DNA from: an uncultured Pelagibacteraceae bacterium
GTDB taxonomy: Bacteria > Pseudomonadota > Alphaproteobacteria > Pelagibacterales > Pelagibacteraceae
Length of the DNA stretch: 64,000 nucleotides
Assembly (NCBI GenBank): GCA_902521355.1
Contig: CABYRT010000004.1
Location: 1 to 64,000, forward strand
Direction: 5' to 3'
The notes under the pieces are model-generated. The model ran no database searches. It was not told the DNA's origin and was given only the letters and a program-made list of their open reading frames with translations. This document shows positions 7,112 through 60,183 of the stretch, one piece after another. The position numbers and the translations under genes are program-made. Each line of letters begins with the position of its first letter. Position 1 is the stretch's first letter.

Positions 7112-7130
7112 AATAATAATTTTAATAAAT

Positions 7131-7148
7131 CTTTAACATAACTGTCAT
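7131..7148 (+). promoter_or_regulatory. PHO-box-like element upstream of the 7170-8956 operon
   Basis: CTTTAAC-ataa-CTGTCAT, two 7-mers with 11-bp period. Confidence 0.55.
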
Positions 7149-7169: not shown

Positions 7170-7391
7170 ATGTTTTTAAAAAAATATCTCAAATGGATAA
7201 GCACATTTTTAGTCTTAACAGGAATATTGCTTACAAATTTAAATATATATCCAATTAATATATATTTTCATGGTCTTGGTGTAGTTGGATGGACAATATC
7301 GGGTTTTTTATTAAAAGATAAGGCCATATTAACTAATTTTGGATTACAAATTCCTTTGTTTGTAATTGGTATTTATAAAATTATTTTTTAA
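7170..7391 (+). CDS. Small hydrophobic membrane protein, 73 aa (possibly DUF6552-like)
   Basis: Good SD (AGGAG) 5' of ATG; 2-3 hydrophobic helices; translationally coupled to arsC. Confidence 0.6.
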   Translation: MFLKKYLKWISTFLVLTGILLTNLNIYPINIYFHGLGVVGWTISGFLLKDKAILTNFGLQIPLFVIGIYKIIF

Positions 7392-7822
7392 TGAAAAATA
7401 TTTTATTTGTATGCACAGGAAATTCAGCGAGAAGCATTATCGCTGAGAGTATTATTAATAACGAATACTCAAATAAATTTAATGCTTTTAGTGCTGGTAG
7501 TAATCCATCTGGAAAAATCAATGAAGATGTTAAAAGTTTTTTAGAAAAAAATAAAAGTTATGATCTAACTAATTACAGTTCTAAAAACTTTGAAGAATTT
7601 ATCAATAAAGAATTAAAAATGGATCATGTAATAACAGTATGCAACAACGCAAATAATGAGGTATGTCCTATTTGGCCTGATAAAAACCAAATTATACATT
7701 GGGATATAGAAGATCCGGTAGCTAAACTTCAAAATGCAAATGACGAAGAAAAGCAAATAATCATTAGAAAAACTTTCAATATTATAAGTAATAAAATTAA
7801 AGATTGGATAGATGAAAAATAA
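7391..7822 (+). CDS. arsC: Arsenate reductase, low-molecular-weight phosphatase (LMWP) family
   Basis: P-loop VCTGNSARS (CX5R) and TVCNNANNEVCPIWPD. Confidence 0.85.
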   Translation: MKNILFVCTGNSARSIIAESIINNEYSNKFNAFSAGSNPSGKINEDVKSFLEKNKSYDLTNYSSKNFEEFINKELKMDHVITVCNNANNEVCPIWPDKNQIIHWDIEDPVAKLQNANDEEKQIIIRKTFNIISNKIKDWIDEK

Positions 7823-8471
7823 AAATAGATATTTTCTTTCAGAGTTCATTGGAAGTTGCTTTCTGGTCATGATCATAGTTGGATCAGGTTTAATGGCAGA
7901 AAATCTAACTAATGATATAGCAGTAATGCTAATAGCAAACACATTGGCAACCGGAGCTGGATTGTTTGTGCTAATAACAGTATTTGCTGATGTATCTGGG
8001 GCTCATTTCAATCCATTTGTAAGTATTGCTATGACAATTACAGGAAAGTTAAAAAAAAACCTTCTACCCTTTTATATTTCTGCTCAGATACTTGGATGTT
8101 TGCTAGGTGTAGCATTAGCTAATTTCTTTTTTGAACATCAGGTTTTTGAATTATCAACAAAGTCAAGGAGTGGGATTTATATTTTTACTTCTGAAATAGT
8201 TGCTACGTTGGGTCTTATTTTAATAATTTTTGGTTCAATGAGATCAGGTAAAATAGCTGTTGCTGGATCAGTTGGTTTATATATCACTGCTGGTTATTGG
8301 TTTACCTCTTCAACTTCTTTTGCAAATCCTGCTGTAACAATAGCAAGAACATTCACAGATTCGTTTACTGGTATAAGTTATTTAAATACTCCTTTTTATA
8401 TAATTGCAGAATTAATTGGTATGTTAATTGCTGTTTATATCGCAAAAAAATTATTCTTAGAAAAAGATTGA
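7812..8471 (+). CDS. aqpS: MIP family aquaglyceroporin, AqpS-like
   Basis: GAHFNPFVSIAM and SFANPAVTIAR boxes; overlaps arsC. Confidence 0.85.
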   Translation: MKNKNRYFLSEFIGSCFLVMIIVGSGLMAENLTNDIAVMLIANTLATGAGLFVLITVFADVSGAHFNPFVSIAMTITGKLKKNLLPFYISAQILGCLLGVALANFFFEHQVFELSTKSRSGIYIFTSEIVATLGLILIIFGSMRSGKIAVAGSVGLYITAGYWFTSSTSFANPAVTIARTFTDSFTGISYLNTPFYIIAELIGMLIAVYIAKKLFLEKD

Positions 8472-12771: not shown

Positions 12772-13296
12772 ATGCTTAAATTATACGTTATGCGTCATGC
12801 AAAATCTAGCTGGGACCACCCAAATCTTGATGATCATGAAAGACCATTAAGTAAGCGTGGCGAGAAAAATGCAAAAAAGATTTGTGAATTTTTTGTTAAA
12901 AAAAATTATAAGTTTGATTACATATTACTTTCATCATCAAAGAGAACAAAGAAAACCCTAAAAATTTTATTAAAAAAAATAGATAAACCAAAAAAAATTA
13001 TTTCTTCAAAAAAATTATACTTATCAAGTGAAGATAAAATTATAGATATAATAAAAAAAATACCAAAAAAATATAAATCAGTGCTTTTAATTAACCATGA
13101 ACCTACTGTTAGAAATCTAATACGATTACTGACAAAAAATCACAACAACAACCATTTTAAATTATTAAACTACAAATTTCCGACATCGGCATTTGCAAAA
13201 ATTTATTTTGATTTTAATGAATGGAATAAATTAGATGGAAATGGTTTAATTAAAGAATTTACTAGGCCTAAAGACCTTCAAGATTCTAAAGAATAA
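12772..13296 (+). CDS. SixA-like phosphohistidine phosphatase (histidine phosphatase superfamily)
   Basis: LYVMRHAKSSWDHPNLDDHERPLSKRG RHG motif; start at 12772. Confidence 0.82.
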   Translation: MLKLYVMRHAKSSWDHPNLDDHERPLSKRGEKNAKKICEFFVKKNYKFDYILLSSSKRTKKTLKILLKKIDKPKKIISSKKLYLSSEDKIIDIIKKIPKKYKSVLLINHEPTVRNLIRLLTKNHNNNHFKLLNYKFPTSAFAKIYFDFNEWNKLDGNGLIKEFTRPKDLQDSKE

Positions 13297-13961
13297 CCTG
13301 CTGATCTTACAGTTCTAATTAAAGGCTTAGTATTATCTATATTAATAGCCTGTCTTAATCTTCTGATATGCACATCGACAGTTCTAGTTTCAACGTAAAT
13401 ATTTTCTCCCCAAACATTGTTTAAGAGTTGTTCTCTTGAATATACTCTTTTTGGATTTTTGATAAAAAAATCTAATAATTTAAATTCTGTAGGTCCTAGA
13501 GATATTTCAATGTTATTTCTATAAACTCTTTTTGTTATTCTATCTATTTTTAGATCTGTAAACTCAACAACATCAACGGTGGATTGTGGTTTTGATCTTC
13601 TGAGTAATGATTTAATTCTTGCATTAAGTTCTTTTTGACTAAATGGTTTTGTTACATAATCATCTGCACCTGTATCAAAAGCTCTTAATTTGTCCTCCTC
13701 CTCGCCTTTTGCTGTTAACATTATTACTGGTATGTCATTATGCTTTTTGTCTTTTTTTAAATTTTTACATATTTCAACGCCTGACAAATCGGGCAACATC
13801 CAATCCATTAATATTAAGTCAGGAAGCTTATCTTTAATTTGTTTAAGCGCATCTTCACCATTTTCACAGAAACTTACTTTGTAACCCTCTTTTTCAAGGT
13901 TATACTTTAGTAGAGTTATTATAGCAGCCTCGTCCTCAGCTATAAAAATATGAGCCGACAT
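13278..13961 (-). CDS. phoB: Phosphate regulon response regulator
   Basis: Receiver plus OmpR-type wHTH (DVHIRRLRQAIN...IRTVRSAGYSLE), end of pst operon. Confidence 0.93.
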   Translation of the reverse strand: MSAHIFIAEDEAAIITLLKYNLEKEGYKVSFCENGEDALKQIKDKLPDLILMDWMLPDLSGVEICKNLKKDKKHNDIPVIMLTAKGEEEDKLRAFDTGADDYVTKPFSQKELNARIKSLLRRSKPQSTVDVVEFTDLKIDRITKRVYRNNIEISLGPTEFKLLDFFIKNPKRVYSREQLLNNVWGENIYVETRTVDVHIRRLRQAINIDNTKPLIRTVRSAGYSLES

Positions 13962-19268: not shown

Positions 19269-19286
19269 ATTACAGAATTATTACAG
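19269..19286 (-). promoter_or_regulatory. PHO box upstream of pstS
   Basis: Minus strand reads CTGTAAT-aatt-CTGTAAT, perfect direct 7-mer repeat with 11-bp period. Confidence 0.8.
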
Positions 19287-19307
19287 TTTTGTTAAAAACC
19301 TAACTTT

Positions 19308-19916
19308 TTAGTTGTATTTCATTGAGACAATAATCTCACTATTTTCAGTTTCTAGACCACCTTTGCATGAAACTGGATTTACGTTATCCTTAAAAGCAAG
19401 ATCTGGGGTTGGTCTTAAGACAACTTCCAGTTTTACCAAATTAACTAATTCCTCAAGAATACTCTGGTCATAACGCCATTTTGGCCAACTAGTAGGAGTA
19501 GAAAAAATAGATGTTAAATAGCTTGTCGCCATAGTAAACCTATAATTACTCATATTTTCATTTCTCAGTAAATGATCTCTAACAGAATTAAATATGTTTC
19601 GACATCTCAATGAATCTGACATGTAGTTCTCTTTTTTTAAATTTTCATTTACTGGAATTGAAACAATTAAATCTACTGTATTTCTCCAATAGGAACTGAG
19701 AACATCTATATATACATCTTCATACGGTACATCTTTATGTTTTTTTATTTCAGGATATGAACTTTTTAAGTCTTCCTGTAATCTAAAGATACCAATATCA
19801 AAAACAGTTAATTGCTGGTTTCTTAAAATTGTAGAAATATCTGATGCATTACTTTTAGTAATGATCGACATTAAAAAAAAAATAATAATTAAAATACTAT
19901 GTAATATCTTAATCAT
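19308..19916 (-). CDS. Hypothetical exported protein between phoR and pstS
   Basis: 202 aa with N-terminal signal peptide (ILHSILIIIFFLMSIITKSNA); no family recognised. Confidence 0.7.
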   Translation of the reverse strand: MIKILHSILIIIFFLMSIITKSNASDISTILRNQQLTVFDIGIFRLQEDLKSSYPEIKKHKDVPYEDVYIDVLSSYWRNTVDLIVSIPVNENLKKENYMSDSLRCRNIFNSVRDHLLRNENMSNYRFTMATSYLTSIFSTPTSWPKWRYDQSILEELVNLVKLEVVLRPTPDLAFKDNVNPVSCKGGLETENSEIIVSMKYN

Positions 19917-20010: not shown

Positions 20011-21159
20011 TTATTTTGTTGGAAGATATATCTTAATTTCAGTACCTTCATTAACTTTACTGAGAATCTCATAGTCACCTCTGTGTTGAGATATAATATG
20101 TTTCATTATAGCTAAACCTAAACCTGTACCACCAACCTTTTTACTTTTTTCTGTATCTACTCTAAAAAATCTTTCAGTTATTCTTGGAATTAGCTGGTGA
20201 GGTATTCCAACACCTTCATCTTTAATGATAATGGCAATATTTTTATCAATTAATTTACCTTCACTGATTTGACTTTTTACGTATATATTTTTTCCATCTT
20301 GTGAATATTTAATTGAATTATCAATTAAATTTGAAAATACAGTTAACAATTTATCATTATCACCAAAAACTAAGGTTGGTTCCATAAGTTCAATATGTAA
20401 ATTGATTTTCTTTTTTTTAAGAATTAATTCAAAGTTACTTTTAATATTAGTAAAAAGATCATTTAAGCTCACAATTTTATTCGGCTTGATATGTTCTTCC
20501 AATTCTATTCTACTTAAAATCAATAAATCATTGATTAGGTTTTCCATTCTTAATACTTGATCAGACATGATAGACATAAATTTTTTTTGCGCCTCTTGGT
20601 CTTTTGAAGCTGGTCCAAGAATAGTTTCTAACGAACCTTTAATCGAAACTAAAGGTGTTCTTAATTCATGACTCACATTTGCAACAAAATCAGTTTTTAG
20701 TTTTTGTGCTTTTGTTATTTCTGTAAAATCTTTTAGAAACAATACGACAGAATTTATTTCTGGAAACAAATGGGTCGGACCAGGAATAACATAGATTTTG
20801 TAAAGTTGATAAGATGGTAAATTTATTTCTACATTGACATTTTTTGTAGTTTGATCTTTGATAGCCTCTTCAATCGTTTCTAATAATTTTGTATCTCTAA
20901 TTACACTTGAAATATTTTTATCAATTAGGTTTTCTCCAAAACGTTGTTTTGCACTTTTGTTTAGATATTTGATTAAATTATATTTATCTAAAGCAAAGAA
21001 TTGATCTTCTAATTCTTCAATAATTACTCTTTTTCCTAAATCATCCTTATTAGTCTTGTTTACAACTGGTGCTGTGTTTTCTGGCTTAATATTTTTTTTA
21101 AATAAAAAATATAATAAAATGATTATTATAACTATAAGTATCAACTCTGCCCAAAACAT
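20011..21159 (-). CDS. phoR: Phosphate regulon sensor histidine kinase
   Basis: FVANVSHELRTPLVSIKGSLETI, NLIDNSIKYSQ, GTGLGLAIMKHI; PAS-like N region; next to pst genes. Confidence 0.9.
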   Translation of the reverse strand: MFWAELILIVIIIILLYFLFKKNIKPENTAPVVNKTNKDDLGKRVIIEELEDQFFALDKYNLIKYLNKSAKQRFGENLIDKNISSVIRDTKLLETIEEAIKDQTTKNVNVEINLPSYQLYKIYVIPGPTHLFPEINSVVLFLKDFTEITKAQKLKTDFVANVSHELRTPLVSIKGSLETILGPASKDQEAQKKFMSIMSDQVLRMENLINDLLILSRIELEEHIKPNKIVSLNDLFTNIKSNFELILKKKKINLHIELMEPTLVFGDNDKLLTVFSNLIDNSIKYSQDGKNIYVKSQISEGKLIDKNIAIIIKDEGVGIPHQLIPRITERFFRVDTEKSKKVGGTGLGLAIMKHIISQHRGDYEILSKVNEGTEIKIYLPTK

Positions 21160-21193: not shown

Positions 21194-22201
21194 TTAATTA
21201 TTAGGTGAAATATTTTCAAAAAATATTTTTGCCGTTTCCTCCCAAGAATATTTTTTTGCAAAATCAAGACAATCTTGACGACTTACCTTCAAAGCTTTTA
21301 AAGCAGAGGTTTTCAAATCATTATCTAAAGTATCAATATTAGTACCCCCTAATATATCTTTAGGTCCCGGTACAGGGTAAGCTGCGACTGGTGTGCCACA
21401 ATTTAAAGACTCTAAGACAACTATACCAAACGTATCTGTTTTACTTGGAAATACAAAAACATCAGATGATGCAAAATGAGAAGCTAATTCTCCATTTGTT
21501 TTCTCACCTAAAAAAATGTCTTTTGGAAACTTTTTTTTTAAATTGTTTAAATCAGGACCTTTACCAATTATAATTTTAGTACCTTCAAGATCTAAATCTA
21601 AAAATGCTTTGATGTTTTTTTCAACAGCAACTCTTCCAACATATATCCATATAGGTCTTTTATAAGGTAAGTCTTTCTTAATGGGGTTTTTAAATGCACC
21701 ATGATTACCTCCTCTGGTCCATGTAACCATTTTATTGTTATCAATACCTAAAGAAATTAATTCTTCACGCATAGATTCTGTTGTTACTAAAATTCTTTCA
21801 GCTTTATTATGAAAATTGCATAAAAATTTTTCTGACCATTTAGCTGGAATGATAGGCATATAAAGTTTCATGTATTTATCAAATCTTGTGTGAAAACTTG
21901 TGGTAAATTTTAAGCCATTTTTAATGCAATGTCTTCGTGCCATAAACCCTAAGGGTCCTTCTGTTGCAATATGTATTGCATCAGGTTTAATTGATTTAAT
22001 TAAGTTACTTACACGGGGCCAAACATTTAAGGACAATCTAATTTCATTATATTTTGGCATGGGCATGGTAAGAAATTGTTGAGGAGTAATATATTCAATA
22101 GTTTGACCTTGTGATTTAAGAATTTCACCAGTTTCGTGGAGAGTTCTTACAACGCCATTAACTTGAGGGTAATAAGCATCGGTAACAATTAATATTTTCA
22201 T
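21194..22201 (-). CDS. agt: Glycosyltransferase family 4 (Agt-like diacylglycerol glycosyltransferase candidate)
   Basis: MKILIVTDAYYPQVNGVVRTL, GRVAVEKNIKAFLDL, SKTDTFGIVVLESLNCGTPVAAYP; adjacent to plcP-like gene. Confidence 0.75.
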   Translation of the reverse strand: MKILIVTDAYYPQVNGVVRTLHETGEILKSQGQTIEYITPQQFLTMPMPKYNEIRLSLNVWPRVSNLIKSIKPDAIHIATEGPLGFMARRHCIKNGLKFTTSFHTRFDKYMKLYMPIIPAKWSEKFLCNFHNKAERILVTTESMREELISLGIDNNKMVTWTRGGNHGAFKNPIKKDLPYKRPIWIYVGRVAVEKNIKAFLDLDLEGTKIIIGKGPDLNNLKKKFPKDIFLGEKTNGELASHFASSDVFVFPSKTDTFGIVVLESLNCGTPVAAYPVPGPKDILGGTNIDTLDNDLKTSALKALKVSRQDCLDFAKKYSWEETAKIFFENISPNN

Positions 22202-22204
22202 TCT

Positions 22205-23011
22205 TTAAGATGCTTTTTTGAATGAACCGATCCTGTTATTATCAATATTTTCTGAAATATATTCGTTTCTTTTTTTATCCCAATAAATTATCTCAAAAGT
22301 TCCATCATATTTTTCTGCCAAGGCTGTACATGACTCAACCCAATCGCCACAATTTAAATAATTAACACCATCAAGATTTAAATTTTCAGCATGATGTATG
22401 TGTCCACAAATTATTCCATCAAATTTTTTCCTTTTTGCATATGAAGAAAGTGTGTTTTCATATTCACCTATAAATTTTACAGCATTTTTTACCTTATATT
22501 TTAAAAATTTTGCCAATGACCAATAGTCTTTACCTCTCAATTTTCTAAAAAAATTTATAATAACATTAATTTTAAGTAATAATTCATAGGCAATAGCTCC
22601 TAATTTAGAAAGCCATTTAGCATATTTCATTACTCCGTCCCAAGCATCACCATGAACAACTAAATATTTTTTTCCTAACTGCGTTTCATGAATAACTCTA
22701 TTTACTATTTTAATATCACCTAAATGCATTGGAATAAATTTTCTAAATACCTCATCATGATTTCCAATTATGTAAAATACTTTTGTCCCGTGCCTTGCTT
22801 TTCTCAATATTTTTTGTATGACATCATTATGCTCTTGAGGCCAATAGAAACTCTTTTGCATTGCCCAAACATCGATTATATCTCCAACTAAATAAAGGTT
22901 CTCGGATCTTGAATTCTTAAAAAATTCTAAAAGCTTGTTAGCTTGACAACCTTTGGTTCCAAGATGCACATCAGATATAAATATACTCTTATATTTTAAT
23001 AACGGAGGCAT
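22205..23011 (-). CDS. plcP: Calcineurin-like metallophosphoesterase (UDP-2,3-diacylglucosamine hydrolase-like; PlcP-type phospholipase C candidate)
   Basis: FISDVHLGTKG, VGDIIDVWAM, GNHDE, CGHIHHAE; linkage to GT4 and phoR/pst. Confidence 0.75.
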   Translation of the reverse strand: MPPLLKYKSIFISDVHLGTKGCQANKLLEFFKNSRSENLYLVGDIIDVWAMQKSFYWPQEHNDVIQKILRKARHGTKVFYIIGNHDEVFRKFIPMHLGDIKIVNRVIHETQLGKKYLVVHGDAWDGVMKYAKWLSKLGAIAYELLLKINVIINFFRKLRGKDYWSLAKFLKYKVKNAVKFIGEYENTLSSYAKRKKFDGIICGHIHHAENLNLDGVNYLNCGDWVESCTALAEKYDGTFEIIYWDKKRNEYISENIDNNRIGSFKKAS

Positions 23012-23025
23012 TAAAAAAACCTATT

Positions 23026-23043
23026 TTGTAACACAACTGTAAC
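23026..23043 (+). promoter_or_regulatory. PHO-box-like element in plcP / lipid-kinase intergenic region
   Basis: TTGTAAC-acaa-CTGTAAC, 11-bp period. Confidence 0.65.
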
Positions 23044-23061
23044 TCGAATCATTTAATTCTT

Positions 23062-23079
23062 ATGTCATTGAAATGTTAA
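23062..23079 (+). promoter_or_regulatory. Second PHO-box-like element in the same intergenic region
   Basis: ATGTCAT-tgaa-ATGTTAA, 11-bp period. Confidence 0.5.
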
Positions 23080-23110
23080 AGATTTATTAAAAATTAGTTA
23101 CGAAAAAATT

Positions 23111-23995
23111 ATGCATTATTGTTTGATTTATAACCTTAATTCTTCAACAGGGAAAAAAATAAAATTTGTAAATAAGATTTATGAAAAATTAAAAATTAAC
23201 AACTCTGTAGATTATTTCAAAACCAAATCTGAAAAAGAGGCGAAAGAAATATTTTTGGAATTTAAAAATAAAAATTATGATAGATTGATAGTTGCTGGTG
23301 GAGATGGATCAGTATCATTTGCTATCAATGAATTGATAAAAAATGACTTTGATTTTAATGATAAATTTGCAATTGGGTACATACCGGCTGGAACAGCCAA
23401 TTTACTTCAAGCAGAGTTATCGATAAATAAAAAAGTAGACGATATTTGTAATATTTTAACATCAAATAATTATAAACAATCTAATCTTATAAAAATAAAT
23501 AAAAATTATTTTTTTTTAATGGCTGGTATTGGTTGGGATGCTAAAATTGTTCACTCTATTGATACACGTATAAAAAAAATACTTGGTAAGATAATATTTG
23601 GTTTAAAAGGGTTTCAGCATTTTTTATTTATGAAAAATAATAAACTTGATGTTTTCTTTGATGGTCAAAAATATCAAGCTGATTGGGTATTAAGTTCTAA
23701 TACCAAATATTATGCTGGTCATCATAAGATAAATAAGTCAAACATTTTTGATGATAGATTAATAACTTATGTTTTTAAAGATTTAAGTAGGCTAAAATTA
23801 ATGTATTATATTATTTTGATAATTATTTATGGAGATTTATCAAGAAACAAATCTGTTATAACCACCTATTCAAAAAGTATCCAAATTAATTGCAATAATT
23901 TTGAAATTCCCGTTCAGGTTGATGGAGATAATTTTGGATGTCACAATAAGATTGATATTGAATTTTCACAAAAAAAAGTAAATTTTTTACTATAA
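23111..23995 (+). CDS. Diacylglycerol kinase catalytic domain (lipid kinase) family protein
   Basis: VAGGDGSVSFAINELI, GYIPAGTANLLQAEL, VQVDGDNFG. Confidence 0.85.
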   Translation: MHYCLIYNLNSSTGKKIKFVNKIYEKLKINNSVDYFKTKSEKEAKEIFLEFKNKNYDRLIVAGGDGSVSFAINELIKNDFDFNDKFAIGYIPAGTANLLQAELSINKKVDDICNILTSNNYKQSNLIKINKNYFFLMAGIGWDAKIVHSIDTRIKKILGKIIFGLKGFQHFLFMKNNKLDVFFDGQKYQADWVLSSNTKYYAGHHKINKSNIFDDRLITYVFKDLSRLKLMYYIILIIIYGDLSRNKSVITTYSKSIQINCNNFEIPVQVDGDNFGCHNKIDIEFSQKKVNFLL

Positions 23996-24079: not shown

Positions 24080-24289
24080 ATGGGTAAGATGTTAAAGAAA
24101 AATGAAAGAAGAAAAAAAAAGTTTATCAAATCAATAGATAAACTTAAAAATAAGATTAATTTAAAGGAAAAAAAACTAGCTAAAATTAATATAAAAATTG
24201 CAGGTATTGAAAAAAAAGTTGCCGAAAAAAAAGCAAAAAAATTAGCTAAAAAGAAAACTAGTGAGAGTCCTGCGTCTGTAAATAATTAA
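24080..24289 (+). CDS. Small lysine-rich, probably coiled-coil protein (69 aa)
   Basis: AGGAGG SD immediately 5' of ATG 24080; MGKMLKKNERRKKKFIKSIDKLKNKINLKEKK... Confidence 0.6.
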   Translation: MGKMLKKNERRKKKFIKSIDKLKNKINLKEKKLAKINIKIAGIEKKVAEKKAKKLAKKKTSESPASVNN

Positions 24290-24303
24290 TGTATAAAAAT
24301 TGT

Positions 24304-58285: not shown

Positions 58286-59395
58286 CAAAACGTTGGAAGC
58301 TTCATTGCTTGATGAAGTATTCGATCTTAATTCCTCAATAGTTTTATTAACTTGTTTTAATTGTTCATTTATAATTTCTGGTTTTTTTAATAAATAATTA
58401 ACAGTTTTATATATTTCATATGAATTACATTCATTTTGTAAAAGTTCAGGAATAATTTCTTTATTGTTAATAATATTTATCATGTTTGCAAATTTTATTT
58501 TTAAAAATAATTTAGCAATAAAAAAATTTAGAAAATTCATTTTGTAAATTATTATTGATGGTACACCATATTTACAAACTTCAAGTGAAATTGTTCCGGA
58601 TTTAACAATTGCAAAAATAGATTTTTTAATTGTCGCAATTTTTATATTTTCATTTGAAATAAGATCAACGTTATCTAAGTTATTTTTTTTTATGATTTGA
58701 GATAAATAATCTTTAGAACCTTCAGTTGCATGAAATACATAATGATAATTATTTTTTTCTTCATTCATTTTTTTAATAAACCCAATAAGTATAGGCACAT
58801 GCGATTTCAGTTCAGACAGTCTACTACCAGGAAAAATTGAGATAATTTTTCCCTTTAATAATTCATTAATTTCAATCTTTTTGTGATTTGTATTATCTAA
58901 TATTGGGTGGCCAACAAATGTATTTTTTAGTTTTTCCTTATCAAAATATTTCTTTTCAAAATCAAATAATAAAAGAATGTGGTCTAAGAAACTTTTCATT
59001 TTTTTCACTCTACCCTCTCGCCATGCCCAAACTTTGGGTGCTATAAAATGAATTGTTTTGATATCTGGTTTTTTTAATTTAATTATTTTTGCAACACGAA
59101 GAGTAAAATCAGGACTATCAACACTAAATAAAATGTCAGGATTAAAATCTAAAACTTTTTTTACTGTTTCATTAATTTTTTTTTTTATCTTAAAAATATT
59201 TAACAATATGTCAGTAAAGGCTATATAAGTAATATCTTCTTGATCATATATTGACTTAATACCTATAGATTTTAAATGTTGACCTCCAACAGATAAAAAT
59301 TCAATGTCATTTTTTGTCTTTTTTAACTCTTTAATTACTTCACAGGCTAATTTATCACCTGATGGCTCGCCAGTTAAAATAAAAATCTTCTTCAT
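58268..59395 (-). CDS. lpxB: Lipid-A-disaccharide synthase
   Basis: TGEPSGDKLACEVI, SVDSPDFTLRVAK, KVWAWREGR. Confidence 0.96.
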   Translation of the reverse strand: MKKIFILTGEPSGDKLACEVIKELKKTKNDIEFLSVGGQHLKSIGIKSIYDQEDITYIAFTDILLNIFKIKKKINETVKKVLDFNPDILFSVDSPDFTLRVAKIIKLKKPDIKTIHFIAPKVWAWREGRVKKMKSFLDHILLLFDFEKKYFDKEKLKNTFVGHPILDNTNHKKIEINELLKGKIISIFPGSRLSELKSHVPILIGFIKKMNEEKNNYHYVFHATEGSKDYLSQIIKKNNLDNVDLISNENIKIATIKKSIFAIVKSGTISLEVCKYGVPSIIIYKMNFLNFFIAKLFLKIKFANMINIINNKEIIPELLQNECNSYEIYKTVNYLLKKPEIINEQLKQVNKTIEELRSNTSSSNEASNVLLSYLR

Positions 59396-60183
59396 TTAGC
59401 TATGACGAAAATGTTATTTCTATTAGCAAATTTCAATCCTTCTTGCTTATCTAAAAATATATTTTGACCTGATCTAACAACAATTCCTTTAATATTTGCC
59501 TTTTTACAATCTTTTAATGTCTCCAGGCCAATAGTCGGCAAATCAACACGTAAATCTTGCTTAGATTTAGGCATCTTTAGTAAAAGTTTATTTTTTAGAT
59601 TATTGTTTCTAATTGATTTTAACATATCTTTGGTACCTTTTCTTTTTTCGATAGAAATTATCTTCTGGTTATTAATCACTAATGCCTGAATATGATTAAG
59701 CGAATTTGTTTTATTCAATATTTGAATACCCTTTTTGATAGTAAGTTTATCAGTCATACTAGGTTTCAATTTTGTGTGACATCCTTTGCTTAAAGTTAAT
59801 TCTGGATTATAAGAATTTAATTTAATAACTTTTATTTTATTTTCCGACAATATATTGATCAATTCTTTTAGTATAGCTGCATCTCCTAGTTTAGATGCTC
59901 TGATAATTCTAGGGATATAGTAAATACCTTTAAGATCTAATTTAAGTTTTGACATTCTTGGTTTAACAATATTTCCTGCAAACAAAACTTTTTTACATTT
60001 TTTAGATTTAATTAATTCTATTATTTTGCCAAATTTTCCAATATTGATAAAATAACTATTTTTGTCTTTTTTGAATTTATTATTTTTTGACAAATCAATT
60101 ATGAAATATTTAATTTTCTTTTTTTTTAAACTTTTTAGAATTTCTAATGGTAATTTTTTTTCTCCTAAAAATAATCCGATCAT
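59392..60183 (-). CDS. lpxI: UDP-2,3-diacylglucosamine pyrophosphatase LpxI (DUF1009)
   Basis: DLRVDLPTIGLETLKDCKKANIKGIVV; between lpxA and lpxB. Confidence 0.92.
   Translation of the reverse strand: MIGLFLGEKKLPLEILKSLKKKKIKYFIIDLSKNNKFKKDKNSYFINIGKFGKIIELIKSKKCKKVLFAGNIVKPRMSKLKLDLKGIYYIPRIIRASKLGDAAILKELINILSENKIKVIKLNSYNPELTLSKGCHTKLKPSMTDKLTIKKGIQILNKTNSLNHIQALVINNQKIISIEKRKGTKDMLKSIRNNNLKNKLLLKMPKSKQDLRVDLPTIGLETLKDCKKANIKGIVVRSGQNIFLDKQEGLKFANRNNIFVIAK

Follow-up and report, generated by a model that had tools for sequence, protein, structure and literature searches.

Genes that adjoin phosphate-uptake genes and encode an LpxH-like phosphoesterase, a family 4 (GT4) glycosyltransferase and a diacylglycerol-kinase-family protein raise the question of whether they serve lipid A and lipopolysaccharide synthesis or the replacement of phospholipids by glycolipids. 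We addressed it for one such locus, in a stretch of 64,000 nucleotides (hereafter the window) from a genome in 31 contigs that is 85% complete. We consider it highly probable that the locus is a Pho-regulated membrane-lipid remodelling module of a HIMB59-like alphaproteobacterium, set within its phosphate island. This reading is built on gene identities, catalytic residues, linkage, PhoB-like sites and sugar-donor genes, from which enzyme activities, induction and the substrate and direction of the kinase are predicted.

Layout of the locus and its phosphate island

Three open reading frames make up the module, and their lead domains score well above Pfam cut-offs. The gene plcP (22205-23011, minus strand, 268 aa, Metallophos) encodes a calcineurin-like metallophosphoesterase, predicted to be a PlcP-type phospholipase C; agt (21194-22201, minus strand, 335 aa, Glyco_transf_4/Glycos_transf_1) starts 3 bp downstream of it and encodes a predicted GT4 diacylglycerol glycosyltransferase; and dgk (23111-23995, plus strand, 294 aa) encodes a DAGK_cat lipid kinase and is divergent from plcP. 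The next gene after agt encodes a PhoR-like sensor kinase (20011-21159, minus strand, HisKA/HATPase), which matches PhoR models at 1e-84 but does not reach the curated cut-off. It is followed by genes for a 202-aa protein, pstS, pstC, pstA, pstB, phoU, phoB (13278-13961, minus strand, over the cut-off of the PhoB model TIGR02154), ppk and ppx. The sequence-only reading had proposed the three genes and their pho neighbours, and both were confirmed, the genes at the coordinates given there.

The relatives fall into two families (f1 and f2) of a single order. The 202-aa protein (19308-19916, minus strand) has no Pfam or NCBIfam match, and its gene lies between phoR and pstS not only in f1 but also in relatives further away (L101-L105, 37-39% identity). 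As this position is kept across relatives, the protein probably belongs to the function of the phosphate island. A small lysine-rich open reading frame lies at about 24082-24290 (plus strand), between dgk and an EamA transporter gene.

Identity of the phosphoesterase and the glycosyltransferase

PlcP and LpxH have a common fold, and LpxH resembles the window phosphoesterase in its superfamily (calcineurin-like metallophosphoesterases) and in its D-x-H, GD-x-x-D/E and GH-x-H motifs. The metal motifs of the window protein are DVHL (D-x-H), GDIIDVW (GD-x-x-D), GNHDE (GNHD[E]) and GHIHH (GH-x-H), a complete PlcP set. LpxH differs in carrying GNRDF instead of GNHDE (19/19 LpxH rows compared), and GNHDE is also shared by nearly every PlcP row for which this motif was located. 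The window protein falls far short of two LpxH models (48.2 bits for a cut-off of 134, and 41.5 bits for a cut-off of 190). In BLASTP comparisons it is 47% identical to P. aeruginosa PlcP over 236 aa, versus 24% to E. coli LpxH over 118 aa. The P. aeruginosa reference was taken from a plasmid record, where a glycosyltransferase gene and cyaB come after it and azoR3 is close by, an order that we take to be the one expected of the PA3219-PA3218 locus in this species. A homologue from S. meliloti, encoded in the vicinity of genes for a LuxR regulator and an AHL synthase and presumably the original PlcP, is 46.9% identical to the window protein. In P. aeruginosa, mutants show that both PlcP and Agt1 are required for glycolipids (PMC8528852).

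Phylogenetic placement against PlcP and LpxH had been named in the sequence-only reading as a check, and it favours PlcP. In a tree of 51 rows, the 19 LpxH rows form one separate clade (support 100/100) on a long branch, and the window protein lies within nested, well-supported PlcP groups. Nesting it in an LpxH subclade, which was picked once the tree had been seen, is 284 log-likelihood units worse and is rejected (AU test, p = 1.8e-75). An earlier AU test, which placed the window protein and all LpxH rows on one side, gave p = 0.108; this bipartition amounts to a rooting question, namely at which point among the PlcP sequences the long branch of LpxH is attached.

The lipid A step itself appears to be served elsewhere in the window. 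As the sequence-only reading had noted, LpxI is encoded at 59392-60183; both its domains (LpxI_N and LpxI_C) are over cut-off, and its gene is flanked by lpxA and lpxB, as part of an lpxD-fabZ-lpxA-lpxI-lpxB run, so that the step is filled without LpxH. No second LpxH-like gene was found in the 85% complete genome, the only other Metallophos match being, we assume, a YmdB-type protein, and none of the 21 sampled genomes of the class has an LpxH that reaches the cut-off.

These results bear directly on a reading of the pair as lipid A and lipopolysaccharide genes, with the phosphoesterase as LpxH and the GT4 protein as an RfaG-type core transferase. Such a reading has precedent, since the description of HIMB59 phosphate islands labels the genes LpxH and RfaG (PMC10734472), PlcP-like proteins in public records, including the plasmid matches, are annotated as UDP-2,3-diacylglucosamine diphosphatase, and the window protein is weakly similar to LpxH structures and models. 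It is opposed by the LpxH scores, the motifs, the tree and the presence of LpxI in the lipid A operon, and by the patchy occurrence of plcP across the genus, unlike that of a lipid A step; we therefore reject it as very improbable. By its sequence the phosphoesterase is PlcP, not LpxH, an assignment with which agt adjacency, the pho-island context and the PhoB-like sites also agree. A PlcP-class activity, that is Mn2+-dependent hydrolysis of phosphatidylglycerol (PG) and phosphatidylethanolamine (PE) to diacylglycerol, is predicted for it.

Two further groups of PlcP relatives were observed. In Pannonibacter and Fuscovulum, members of a distinct PlcP-related clade are encoded beside 'ceramide glucosyltransferase' genes (L211, L212, L213). 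In addition, 32 IMG/VR contigs filed as viral (L045-L076) encode PlcP relatives with 49-58% identity, several of them with an adjoining agt; these contigs are probably bacterial or prophage-edge DNA rather than phage-carried copies.

The proposal that the GT4 neighbour is Agt also held. The protein shows 41% identity to Agt1 of P. aeruginosa, its gene adjoins plcP, and all 15 mutation-tested residues of GTcp, the enzyme of SAR11 strain HTCC7211 (PMC8231724), are identical in it and bear the same numbers (G16, L56, G82, G85, H104, T162, R163, R190, K195, D256, T257, F258, G259, E264 and W320). On this evidence the protein is Agt, and an activity of the Agt/GTcp class, yielding MGDG and GADG from diacylglycerol, is predicted for it. 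In the window genome, an NDP-sugar dehydrogenase gene (over cut-off) adjoins a GalU-like gene (below the curated cut-off), which makes UDP-glucose and UDP-glucuronate plausible donors for Agt. No match to PF13444, sought as a sign of ornithine-lipid synthesis, was found in the window genome. In some relatives (L101:9780-11361, L105:9795-11403 and L106:9789-10529), an acyltransferase gene directly follows agt; in L101, and by appearance in L105, a PF13444 GNAT gene lies next to it, and the two resemble the olsA/olsB pair of ornithine-lipid synthesis.

The divergent kinase and its distribution

The dgk product matches DAGK_cat (PF00781) with 80.6 bits for a cut-off of 23.6 and carries the motif GGDGS, but it remains under every curated equivalog or subfamily cut-off (best score 98.7 versus 385; TIGR00147, 91.1 versus 118.65). 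Its best PDB match is DgkB (2qv7), with similarity over 226 residues. It thus resembles the DgkB/YegS/BmrU lipid kinases in its DAGK_cat domain, its GGDG[S/T] motif and its similarity to DgkB, and differs from them in its GTANLL and QVDGD motifs, its sub-equivalog scores and the fixed position of its gene beside plcP. It is the only PF00781 match in the window genome, where no match to PF01219 (DgkA) was detected either, so that no second diacylglycerol kinase was found there.

Throughout the order, plcP and agt are adjacent in 21/21 plcP-bearing genomes, in f1 and f2 alike, and pho/pst genes come next wherever the sequence reaches far enough. Within the genus, 8 of 37 genomes have plcP, and the kinase gene was found in exactly these 8 (in two of them just as a contig-end fragment) and in none of the remaining 29 (Fisher test, 2.6e-8, uncorrected for relatedness or genome incompleteness). 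Family f2, however, has plcP-agt and lacks the kinase gene, which indicates that the kinase is not essential. In a sample of loci obtained through an organism-titled search, the kinase gene is directly upstream of and divergent from plcP in 13/13 f1-like loci and in 14 of the 58 others with enough upstream sequence, that is in 27 of 71 overall, and it never occupies another place near plcP. Thirteen of these 14 non-f1 kinase loci have agt downstream, and the same order is found in distant Alphaproteobacteria (Azospirillum brasilense, Novispirillum itersonii and Caenispirillum bisanense). All eight of the plcP-linked kinases that were checked are PF00781 proteins, and most plcP-linked kinases carry GTAN(V/L)L and QxDGD motifs, while identity between lineages is about 20-35%, indicating fast divergence. 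Both the co-occurrence with plcP and the conserved divergent placement bear out the earlier suggestion that this gene is a linked part of the module. No description of this placement was found in the literature searched, a body that excluded Carini et al. 2015 on SAR11; a four-gene cluster is reportedly described there.

What the kinase acts on is less firmly indicated. Linkage to and co-occurrence with plcP argue for diacylglycerol as its substrate, as does its closest structural relative by sequence, the diacylglycerol kinase DgkB. In Pseudomonas putida, DagK and PlcP are listed together as Pi-induced proteins of lipid remodelling (PMC5082522). It is plausible that the kinase recycles diacylglycerol to phosphatidate and so closes a reversible cycle, as the sequence-only reading had suggested, although PlcP and the kinase acting simultaneously would waste ATP unless separated in time. 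A serious competitor, to which we give somewhat less than an even chance, accepts PlcP and Agt and has the kinase act on another lipid or in another envelope role. The YegS/BmrU-type family has varied substrates, and this kinase, besides scoring below all curated equivalog cut-offs and diverging quickly, is not encoded nearby in f2 and most other plcP-agt loci; a role other than diacylglycerol recycling fits less well with its strict co-occurrence with plcP and its conserved divergent placement.

Predicted Pho control and relation to published islands

A PhoB matrix was trained solely on PhoB boxes from the pstS promoters of relatives and scanned over 127,966 window positions. All of the six best sites are located at the phosphate island. 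The top two are tandem sites before pstS (19269-19297, minus strand, starting at 19269 and 19280), which are aligned in relatives. Two others are located between plcP and dgk: one toward dgk (23026-23043, plus strand, rank 3), 67 bp ahead of its start, and one toward plcP-agt (23075-23092, minus strand, rank 5), 63 bp ahead of plcP. The last two (ranks 4 and 6) overlap at 7120-7148 (7120/7131), at the far end of the island, before genes for a WzB-like low-molecular-weight phosphatase and a GlpF-like channel (7391-8471). A simple PhoB pattern has exact matches at pstS and 23027 only, the latter within the dgk-ward site, and 15 matches with one mismatch allowed, versus 6.1 expected in the window. 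Among relatives, no other block of the plcP/dgk intergenic region is as well conserved as the plcP-ward site, and the dgk-ward site is retained solely in close relatives of the window. Together with the surrounding pho island, these predicted sites suggest that plcP, with agt 3 bp downstream, is under Pho control.

In the mechanism we propose, low phosphate would lead PhoR-PhoB to turn on plcP-agt through the PhoB boxes between plcP and dgk. PlcP would then split phosphatidylglycerol and phosphatidylethanolamine into diacylglycerol, releasing the phospho-headgroup, and Agt would add a sugar from UDP-glucose or UDP-glucuronate to give phosphorus-free glycolipids. The divergent kinase would most likely return surplus diacylglycerol to phosphatidate, keeping diacylglycerol low and making phospholipid resynthesis possible. 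More tentatively, and with odds that we put a little short of even, the divergent arrangement may be a conserved three-gene switch of Alphaproteobacteria, in which one PhoB-controlled intergenic region balances the flow of diacylglycerol to glycolipid against that to phospholipid by means of a kinase subfamily (GTAN(V/L)L, QxDGD) that is linked to plcP and dedicated to this task.

The closest characterized systems are the PlcP-Agt pairs of Pelagibacter HTCC7211, Pseudomonas aeruginosa (PA3219-PA3218) and Methylosinus OB3b (PMC4796936, PMC8528852, PMC9239053), which likewise have plcP immediately upstream of agt, PhoB-type sites and the same catalytic residues; functions of PlcP and Agt homologues are documented in PMC8528852, PMC4796936 and PMC8231724. 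Unlike them, the window module has a divergent DAGK_cat gene on a shared promoter region and is embedded in a phoR-pstSCAB-phoU-phoB island. As for the island, it resembles the flexible phosphate islands published for HIMB59 (PMC10734472) in its WzB-like phosphatase, GlpF-like channel, ppx, ppk, SixA-like phosphatase, phoB, phoU, pstBACS, phoR, 'RfaG', 'LpxH' and DGK genes, and this match in content suggests that the window genome belongs to HIMB59. No alkaline phosphatase gene was seen among the island's open reading frames in the window, so that the nearest published form would be version D. That study also assigns two genes, as phosphatases, to the formation of extracellular polysaccharide, and sees no direct P function in the glycosyltransferase or in DGK (PMC10734472). 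Our reading differs in taking the island's LpxH, RfaG and DGK as PlcP, Agt and a linked kinase. The gene system is thus of a known kind and the island already published, and what appears to be new is the functional reading of the island and the conserved divergent kinase gene.

Public annotation of PlcP as LpxH hides the trait from genome surveys. Here, part of an already published phosphate island, from a streamlined lineage of the ocean, is re-read as membrane-lipid remodelling, which gives a phosphorus-saving role to islands reported as tracking ocean phosphate. With a lipid kinase travelling with PlcP-Agt, the reversibility of the lipid swap becomes a directly testable question.
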